This document shows positions 3,773-35,987 of a stretch of DNA of 56,992 bases, one piece after another. How positions within the stretch are numbered: the stretch's first letter is position 1; each line of letters starts with the position of its first letter. The position numbers and the translations under genes are program-made. The stretch comes from an uncultured Muriicola sp. Lineage in GTDB: Bacteria > Bacteroidota > Bacteroidia > Flavobacteriales > Flavobacteriaceae. The notes under the pieces are model-generated. The model was not told the origin of the DNA. It searched no databases and saw nothing but the letters and a program-made list of their open reading frames with translations. The stretch is from assembly GCF_947258935.1 (NCBI RefSeq), contig NZ_CAMYKH010000014.1, forward strand, positions 1 to 56,992, written 5' to 3'.

Positions 3773-5811
<2,039 letters not shown>

Positions 5812-5829: not shown

Positions 5830-6600
5830 TTAGTCTCCACTAAGAGCTTTGTCATAGACCCATATCTCATCCCACCAGTTAGAGTAAGTGACATCCCGGT
5901 TCCTGATAAATGAATCCCAGGTATTAGCACCATGTACCTCATCAAACGTTGTTCTAAAAGGCCAGGAGGTCCCAAAGTCGGTCCAATTTTTATGAAAGCT
6001 AACGGTTGCAATATGTCTGCCAATTTTACCCTGGACGAACAGATTGTTATAGACGCCCCATGGATGAACACCGGGCATTGCCTTTATTGTCTTACTGGCC
6101 ATTTCCAAATGTGATTCTACACTAAAGCCATGCCCAGGATTAACCTCCCAATAACGGGTAAAAAGGATTGGATAAGTACTTGGATCATTAGGAAGCATGG
6201 ACGTATTGGAAAGTTTGGAATCTCCTTCCCAATATTCCCCTTGTTCAGTTTGCATTACATATGGCATGATATTGTCTCTCCAATCTTCATCGTGCCCTCC
6301 TTCTGCCGGGCGCGTGTCCAGGTCACTAAATTTTAAGGGCCCCATCATCCATATTAATTTGCCTGAATTCGGACCGCTTAATATATTGTAAACTGAAGCT
6401 TTAAATGCTCCTTCCTTATGGTATTTCTGGTTGTGTTTCCGCATATTTTCACCAAGAACTTTTAACTTGGTATTATCCGGTACCAGCATAATGGATTCCC
6501 ACTTAGGTTCGTCTTGTGCTTCTTGTGCTTTTAGTTGTGTGGTGGCCCCCAATATGAGTAATACGGTGGCAATAAATGAAATTAATTTTTTAGACATCAT
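5830..6600 (-). CDS. Secreted protein of unknown function, Trp-rich
   Basis: 256 residues. The first 25 form a clear signal peptide (Lys-rich start, hydrophobic ISFIATVLLILGA, cleavage after LKAQ), so the product is exported to the periplasm or beyond. The mature part is soluble and rich in Trp and other aromatics (WIYD-like ending DEIWVYDKAL). I do not recognise a family. Repeated short segments that look like paired alpha/beta units (ESIMLVPDN.. and the later HIATVSFHKNWTDF) would fit a duplicated dimeric-barrel fold, but that is a guess. It stands alone, convergent with ligA and divergent from the small gene at 6720. A second Met at codon 2 is an equally possible start. Confidence 0.75.
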   Translation of the reverse strand: MMSKKLISFIATVLLILGATTQLKAQEAQDEPKWESIMLVPDNTKLKVLGENMRKHNQKYHKEGAFKASVYNILSGPNSGKLIWMMGPLKFSDLDTRPAEGGHDEDWRDNIMPYVMQTEQGEYWEGDSKLSNTSMLPNDPSTYPILFTRYWEVNPGHGFSVESHLEMASKTIKAMPGVHPWGVYNNLFVQGKIGRHIATVSFHKNWTDFGTSWPFRTTFDEVHGANTWDSFIRNRDVTYSNWWDEIWVYDKALSGD

Positions 6601-33443: not shown

Positions 33444-35987
33444 TTATTCTACCAGTTCTGATTGATTTCTAAAAACCAATCCATTGTCGAAAGAATCGAT
33501 AAGGATAATACTCTCTGCACTAATTGAACCACTTAAAAGTTCCTTGGAAAGATTGTTCAATACTTCTTTCTGAATGGTTCGCTTAATGGGTCGAGCCCCA
33601 TATTGTGGGTTATACCCTTTCTCAGCCAGATATTGAATAGCTTCTTCTGTGGCATCAATGGTAATATGTTGTTTGTCCACAAGTTTTTTCAAGTGGTCTA
33701 ATTGCAATCTTACGATCTCAACAATATTTTTCTTGCTCAGAGGAGTAAACATGATGATGTCATCTATCCGGTTCAAAAATTCAGGCCGGATGTTTTGTTT
33801 TAATAATCCCATAACTTCTATCCTTGCAGCCTCTGTAGCACTGTGAAGATCCTTCACATTCTCAAACGTTTCCTGGATGATATGCCCACCCATATTACTG
33901 GTCATAATGATAATGGTGTTTTTAAAATCGGCCACCCTGCCTTTGTTATCTGTAAGTCTACCTTCATCCAACACCTGCAACAAAATATTAAAAGTATCCG
34001 GATGTGCTTTCTCAATTTCATCGAGTAGAATAACGGAATAAGGTCGTCTTCTTACGGCTTCCGTCAACTGACCACCTTCGTCATAACCTACATATCCCGG
34101 AGGAGCTCCAATTAGCCTGCTTACAGAATGTCTTTCCTGATATTCACTCATGTCTATTCTAGTAAGGGCATTTTCATCATCAAACAGATAGTCTGCCAAT
34201 GTCTTGGCCAATTCAGTCTTACCAACCCCAGTGGTTCCAAGGAATAAGAAAGATCCTATTGGGCGTTTTGCATCCTGAAGACCGGCTCTGCTTCTTCTGA
34301 TGGCATCTGAAACGGCTTCGATGGCCTCATCTTGCCCTACGACTCTTTTGTGCAAAACTTTTTCTAGTTTCAACAGTTTCTCACGTTCGCTTTGAAGCAT
34401 CTTGGTTACCGGAATACCTGTCCATTTGGCAACCACTTCGGCAATATCCTCATTGGTGACCTCTTCTTTAATTAAAGTGCCGCCTTTCTGTGCCTCTACC
34501 AGGTCTTTTTGAAGCTTTTCCACAGTTTCCTGTGCTTCTTTTATCTTCCCATAGCGCAATTCGGCTACCAGCCCATAATCACCATTACGCTCTGCACGTT
34601 CAGCCTCTAATTTGAAGTTCTCAATATCGAGTTTCGTCTTTTGAATAGCATCTATGACCGATTTCTCACTTTCCCATTTGGCATAGACCTCATTGCGTTC
34701 TTCTTTAACATTAGCCAGATCAATATTAAGGGCCTTTAATTTAGCATGGTCTTCCTCACGCTTTATAGCTTCTATCTCAATTTCCAACTGCATAATTTTC
34801 CTGTCCATAACGTCGAGGTTTTCTGGTTTGCTATTGATCTCCATTCTCAGTTTAGCCGCGGCTTCATCCATAAGGTCGATCGCCTTATCAGGAAGGAATC
34901 TATTAGTGATATATCGCTGAGAAAGTTCTACGGCAGCAATTACGGCTTCATCCTTAATACGAACTTTGTGATGGGCCTCATATTTTTCCTTGATCCCTCT
35001 CAGAATAGATATGGCACTTTCTGTATCGGGCTCATTTACAACAACCTTTTGAAAGCGCCTCTCCAGGGCCTTATCCTTCTCAAAATATTTTGGTTTTAAG
35101 ATATTGGCCGCATCCATGGCTCCCTGACCACCACCGGCACCTACCAGCGTATGGATCTCATCTATGAACAAAACAATGTCTCCATCACTGGTGGTCACCT
35201 CTTTGATCACAGATTTAAGTCGCTCCTCAAACTCACCTTTATATTTAGCTCCTGCAATAAGGGCACCCATATCTAAGGAATAAATCACTTTGTCTTTTAG
35301 GTTTTCCGGCACATCTCCCTGAATGATCCTATGAGCCAATCCTTCGGCGATAGCGGTTTTACCTGTTCCTGGTTCACCCACCAATATTGGATTGTTCTTG
35401 GTGCGTCTGGATAGGATTTGCAAAATCCTTCTGATCTCTTCATCTCTGCCAATAACCGGATCCAACTTTCCACTATCTGCCAATTCGTTTAGGTTTCGTG
35501 CGTATTTATTTAAGGAGTTATATGTTTCTTCTGCACTTTGGGAAGTAACCTTGGCCCCTTTTCGCAATTCGGAAATGGCAGCAAGGAGATCCTTTTCTGA
35601 AACACCCTGATCCTTCAATATCTGACCAATTTTACTTTTGGACTTAAAAATGGCTAGCAAGATATGTTCAAGAGAAACAAACTCATCCTTCATTTTCTTG
35701 GCAATGATACTCGCCTCATTTAAGGTTTTGCCTGCTTCTTTGGAGAATTGCAACTCGCCTCCGGAAACCTTTGGGATACTTTGCAGCTCTTTGGCCAGAA
35801 TTTGTTCTACCAAGGCGAGGTTAACGTTCAATTTCTTTAGAATAAATGGAAGAACATTTTCATCAATTTCCATTAAGGCCTTAAATAGATGTTCATTCTC
35901 GATCTGAGGATGCTGCATCTCCTGAGCCATTTGCTGGGCCATTTGAATAACCTCCTGTGATTTTATGGTAAAATTGTTGATATTCAT
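33444..35987 (-). CDS. clpB: ATP-dependent disaggregase ClpB, lacking about 19 residues in the first ATPase domain
   Basis: 847 residues. N-domain (1-145), NBD1 with Walker [10 protein letters not shown] and Walker [10 protein letters not shown], middle coiled-coil domain (about 390-520), NBD2 with Walker [13 protein letters not shown], Walker [12 protein letters not shown] and sensor-2 [10 protein letters not shown]. ClpB works with DnaK to pull proteins out of aggregates. In NBD1 the sequence jumps from DAANILKP (ending at residue 299) directly to [14 protein letters not shown]. The family has about 19 residues between these, including the GATTLDEY segment with the sensor-1 Thr. The loss is in frame, and adding it back gives the usual 866 residues. 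Function of NBD1 is doubtful if the sequence is right. Confidence 0.95.

Follow-up and report, generated by a model that had tools for sequence, protein, structure and literature searches.

The clpB locus and its deletion junction

In the window, i.e., the whole stretch of 56,992 nucleotides analyzed here, the reverse strand encodes a ClpB protein of 847 residues. Searches of the draft genome to which the window belongs found no second ClpB, leaving this gene as the sole one detected. The gene and the features needed below are the following:

33,444–35,987, reverse strand: clpB, 847 residues as read (open reading frame, TIGR03346 chaperone_ClpB match and own-genome search)
35,355–35,378, reverse strand: NBD1 Walker A motif GEPGTGKT, residues 204–211, kept and conserved in the comparison with relatives
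35,151–35,171, reverse strand: NBD1 Walker B motif LFIDEIH, residues 273–279, kept and conserved in the same comparison
35,088–35,093, reverse strand: deletion junction, where Pro299 (CCA, 35,093–35,091) abuts Lys300 (AAA, 35,090–35,088), with 57 bases (19 codons) absent
35,052–35,060, reverse strand: arginine-finger-like RRF of ALERRF, residues 310–312, shortly 3' of the junction, kept and conserved among relatives

GEPGTGKT and LFIDEIH are taken here to be the Walker A and Walker B motifs of NBD1, and the RRF of ALERRF presumably acts as an arginine finger. The regions of ClpB are likewise assumed to be the N domain, NBD1, the M domain and NBD2, an order which the window protein follows in its end-to-end matches to TIGR03346 and to Thermus thermophilus ClpB. 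TIGR03346 is its best NCBIfam family, with positions 1–852 of the 853-position profile covered, and 1qvr, the structure of the T. thermophilus protein, is its best solved match (1qvr residues 1–847). The window protein thus resembles the bacterial ClpB disaggregase from end to end, and its locus is syntenic in a genome of the same genus. It differs from this family by the absence of 19 NBD1 residues (after Pro293 of 1qvr, aligned by hand) and by its score of 1220.1 bits, 12 below the curated equivalog cut-off of 1232.1. Among the records listed, which may lack nearer ones, the closest named loci belong to the Flavobacteriaceae Pseudozobellia, Kriegella and Flagellimonas (83–84% identity), a family from which the window probably stems as well.

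DNA comparison with intact relatives established that the 57-base loss in clpB is in frame. Adding the 19 residues to the 847 encoded gives 866, the length of ClpB in nine of the ten close relatives measured, the tenth having 867. The initial annotation had placed the junction at 35,090/35,091, described an in-frame loss of 57 bases from a protein usually 866 residues long and reported that all other motifs were kept. Its position and size were confirmed, as was the retention of the motifs checked (Walker A, Walker B and RRF). What the window protein lacks is a complete NBD1 core with its GATT (sensor-1) segment.

Occurrence of the segment in other ClpB proteins

A motif script was used to read 124 records and located both flanking motifs in 119 of them, of which three are the window locus, one is the ClpC of the same genome and 115 are further ClpB loci. 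In all of these 115, the flanking motifs are separated by 22 residues, against three in the window. This stretch reads exactly ALARGELRAIGATTLDEYQ in 89 of them and is a close variant in the remainder. Three loci missed by the script (L043, L082 and L116) also have the segment, so that of the ClpB loci read at this site apart from that of the window, all 118 contain the 19 residues. This count leaves out L042, whose contig stops just before the segment, and L003, a short match to the Clp C-terminal domain that has no such motif, and it includes a few organisms twice (e.g., L009 and L044, which sit at identical positions on contigs of equal length).

A query of 48 residues spanning the deletion site was also searched in samples of the genus, the family and the class, which overlap and each contain the genome of the window. 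The query matched its own genome without gap (E 3.7e-28). Outside this genome, no gapless junction was found among nine genomes of the genus (next best E 1.5e-10) or among 397 sampled genomes of the family (next best E 1.1e-10), the latter result resting on the best E value of each of the 397 genomes beside the best-ranked matches listed. Among the matches listed, the next best in genus and family covered one side of the junction only. In the class sample of 198 genomes, no second genome had a match at E ≤ 1e-13. The initial annotation had envisaged that relatives might lack the segment as well; the motif reading and the junction searches exclude this for the genomes searched.

Inside the own genome, ClpC on contig 15 is the only other full-length match to the intact NBD1 core, and searches of the other contigs did not recover the missing 57-base piece. 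The idea that the assembly holds clpB or the missing piece a second time was rejected, as these searches found no such copy.

In 43 of the 397 family genomes, the best match to the junction query was worse than E 1e-7, the level of ClpC in the genus search, and four genomes had none (counted by eye). These weak matches are probably ClpC. Many of the genomes devoid of a clear ClpB match are small or incomplete, and some are more than 90% complete; ClpB may have been lost several times within the family.

Structural and functional role of the missing segment

The NBD1 of an intact relative (Kriegella, L045) was modeled by AlphaFold with moderate confidence (mean pLDDT 68.6). In this model, the deleted columns (142–160) comprise the end of a helix, a strand (148–151) and the start of the next helix. 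When the window protein is modeled (mean pLDDT 67.5), this strand is missing and the P-loop strand is shorter, spanning residues 43–45 vs 41–46 in the intact model. The pLDDT of the window model falls to 32–37 past the junction. Model confidence was rejected as evidence, because the intact relative is also poorly modeled (below 50) at residues 154–180, just downstream of the strand.

According to the passages of PMC3940203 at hand, the AAA+ core is built on a central five-stranded parallel sheet, and the sensor 1 of NBD2 is required for nucleotide hydrolysis and dispensable for binding. The available text of PMC5540906 indicates that stabilization of the ClpB hexamer needs nucleotide binding at NBD1, and that of PMC4436881 assigns a mostly regulatory role to AAA-1 and that of main motor to AAA-2. 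Judging from the models, the deletion would take more than sensor 1, a core strand of NBD1 being also gone, and the expected effect would be an NBD1 failing to fold, beyond mere slowness. The initial annotation was right that the sensor-1 segment is lost, and understated the loss, which in the models extends to the core strand; its proposal of a disabled NBD1 is probably too mild for the same reason.

Constraint on the rest of the gene

Positions 1–43,278 of the window are largely syntenic with contig 124 of G003, a genome of the same genus, at 81–84% DNA identity, with a clean break in the alignment at 35,091. Thirty-nine open reading frames of the window, located between 729 and 44,151 (38 of the 53 listed plus one of 130 residues), were compared with this contig; overlapping frames and those beyond 44,151 were left out. 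A counterpart was found for 38 of the 39, and in these 38 gene pairs, no window gene other than clpB has an internal deletion. The exception is the frame at 5,830–6,600 (reverse strand), the only one of the 39 devoid of a counterpart on the syntenic contig.

The dN/dS of clpB against G003 is 0.018, the second lowest of the 38 pairs. With G003 as outgroup, the window branch has 89 synonymous and six non-synonymous codon changes, compared with 91 and 10, respectively, on the branch of the sister genome G008. Assuming a neutral ratio of three non-synonymous changes to one synonymous, no more than some 4% of the window branch can have evolved without constraint (rough 95% upper bound). Only two window-specific changes occur at otherwise conserved ClpB sites, both mild (L to M and V to I), and no compensatory-looking change was seen near the junction in the alignment with relatives. 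Since the rest of clpB is intact and constrained, a long-standing null allele is unlikely, and, given the low unconstrained share, a deletion that destroys the protein must either have arisen very recently or be absent from the organism.

State of the assembly

The genome of the window (G000) is a draft of 155 contigs with an estimated completeness of 94.22%. Runs of 19, 21 and 98 N occur in three of 20 sampled stretches of 20 kb; there is no N at the junction or elsewhere in the window. The 21-N run lies at 4,759–4,779 of locus L150 (contig C16 of G000), within an apparent fusion gene that we take to be lpxC/fabZ from its protein. It corresponds to 16 bases in genome G006, so that the frame is shifted. 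The reading frame that enters the 98-N run meets stops beyond it (by eye). Because 21 N stand for 16 bases and stops follow the 98-N run, these runs look like scaffold gaps of estimated size, the alternative being masking by the operator. The assembly would accordingly be a draft holding joins of estimated size, going by the N runs in three of the 20 stretches.

An assembly-wide check was performed on 104 orthologue pairs (32,304 residues), obtained by comparing the window and the 20 stretches of G000 with 800 kb of G006 and one G003 contig. Query frames below 120 residues, pairs below 60% identity or 100 residues and genes devoid of a counterpart in the compared DNA were not counted. Gaps of at least five residues occur in four of the 104 pairs, and clpB is the only clean loss in a protein more than 90% identical. 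Assembly-wide damage was rejected, given this single clean loss.

The two breakpoints

The flanks of the junction share, by eye, one base at most as direct-repeat microhomology, so that slippage between direct repeats is unsupported. Similarly, a hairpin-driven deletion was rejected, as the folded sequence of a relative proved unexceptional (z −1.43), and the deleted piece is not a highly shared block: it ranks 231 of 848 windows in DNA identity, and the number of words it shares does not exceed the average.

The position of the right breakpoint is, on the other hand, unusual. For exact words common to pairs of genomes, it lies in the top 1.0–1.6% of clpB positions (k = 21, 25, 31 and 41; 114 clpB genes) and reaches the maximum score for k = 25, 31 and 41. 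The left breakpoint is ordinary, 30–76% of clpB positions scoring equally high. This test was post hoc, having been prompted by the word-sharing result on the segment, and with two breakpoints its outcome amounts to about 1 in 40. What the window carries at the right breakpoint is a variant of the most widespread word, and it agrees exactly with the nearest relative over 23 bases.

In an order-level genome (G057), the left edge of the segment is where two contigs stop; in G110, one contig stops inside the segment. Both cases were noticed rather than sampled and were picked post hoc among split clpB genes, the others being in G136, G181, G216 and G232. In G057, the two contig ends (L042 and L043) lie at the same clpB spot just before the segment and overlap by about 13 bases.

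Origin of the deletion

The initial annotation left the choice between a natural mutant and a wrong consensus. Both readings stand, and the second is favored here: with a probability of roughly 0.56, an assembly or consensus error dropped 57 bases from an ordinary ClpB disaggregase gene. Its preference over a recent private null allele is a matter of judgement; the tilt arises from the scaffolded state of the draft, the error in gap size and the location of one breakpoint within sequence that many genomes share, and falls short of proof. According to the proposed course of events, a break in the assembly graph probably occurred within the A/T-rich sequence that borders the segment on the right, the part of clpB whose words recur most among species. 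The assembler would have rejoined both sides leaving out the 57-base piece, and the cells themselves would most likely carry an intact clpB.

Several observations count for such an error. The junction is unique to its own genome, clpB shows no sign of decay (dN/dS 0.018, few non-synonymous changes), contigs end at or in the segment in G057 and G110, and microhomology is limited to one base at most, slippage normally using a direct repeat. Others count against it. The window holds neither an N nor the commonest shared word itself, the left breakpoint lies outside a shared word, the missing piece is absent from other contigs, and this is the only such loss in 104 gene pairs. The loss is also exactly in frame, for which the chance expectation is 1/3, and, by eye, the join offers no overlap obviously usable by an assembler. 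In addition, graph assemblers seldom skip 57 bases silently. Indels and local misassemblies are reported for short-read metagenome assemblers (PMC5502489, PMC6350398), the passages at hand giving no rate for long bacterial deletions.

A possible, less probable explanation is a real, recent and private deletion in the population, which would have turned clpB into a null or dominant-negative allele that is being lost. An NBD1 ring deprived of its core strand and sensor 1 would fail to fold or to bind ATP, leaving hexamers unstabilized. The absence of the strand from the AlphaFold model of the deleted form agrees with this, as does the need for nucleotide binding at NBD1 for hexamer stability (PMC5540906, in the part available). 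A clean sequence devoid of any gap and the failure to find an intact copy of the segment elsewhere in the assembly also speak for a genuine event, and ClpB is maybe dispensable in the family, as suggested by the 43 of 397 genomes with only a ClpC-level match and the four with none (by eye). However, constraint on the gene has not been relaxed (the unconstrained share is about 4% or less, a rough bound), so that the event would need to be very recent; its breakpoints have no direct repeat, and it is known from a single draft assembly.

That the protein is a working natural variant, driven by NBD2 with a remodeled or silent NBD1, is improbable. The frame, the Walker and arginine-finger motifs of NBD1 and the remaining protein are kept and conserved, the two window-only changes at conserved sites are mild, and AAA-1 has been described, in the text of PMC4436881 at hand, as mainly regulatory, with AAA-2 as the main motor. 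Against this stand the presence of the segment in each of the 118 further ClpB loci read, the absence of the deletion from every other genome searched and the lack of compensatory-looking changes close to the junction. Slightly less credible still is an allele lacking the NBD1 core strand and sensor 1 yet under selection, in which NBD2 alone or mixed hexamers would do some chaperone work. Very little weight is given to a function supplied from elsewhere, by a second intact ClpB on an unassembled piece or by restoration of the segment after transcription, for which nothing speaks positively beyond the room that 94% completeness leaves for an unassembled copy, the good matches in the own genome being only ClpC and the window copy; all further explanations together receive equally little.

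Relation to known systems

Sensor-1 point mutants, namely Asn709 in NBD2 of T. thermophilus ClpB (PMC3940203) and N728A of Hsp104 (PMC2689388), resemble the window protein in that the sensor 1 of one ring is lost. As far as the available passages tell, these mutants differ from it in affecting single NBD2 residues and in retaining nucleotide binding, whereas a whole stretch of NBD1 is gone in the window. The local misassemblies described for draft metagenomes in the consulted parts of PMC6350398 and PMC5502489 share with the window two flanks joined on the same strand, a short missing piece and a draft with N gaps. Here, by contrast, misassembly is a candidate only, and the draft is presumably of metagenomic origin.

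These data do not point to a new kind of chaperone; the window gene most likely owes its shorter form to an error of assembly or to a harmful mutation that arose recently in one lineage, and neither of these readings involves a new type of ClpB. Should the consensus be wrong, the case would show that an in-frame loss, however clean, is not to be taken for biology in a scaffolded draft until reads have been consulted. A genuine deletion would capture ClpB in the course of being lost, in a family several of whose genomes have no clear ClpB match; with a far smaller likelihood, it would amount to a natural experiment on whether ClpB can work when NBD1 is not intact.

A split clpB in another genome of the genus

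In G002, a single-contig genome of the same genus, clpB is broken in two by a run of C that differs by one base (locus L037, G002:C1:1621400-1625500, at about 2,664–2,751 of this locus). The TetR-like gene beside it also seems, by eye, to shift frame. Either homopolymers caused a sequencing error, or this genus contains another broken clpB.
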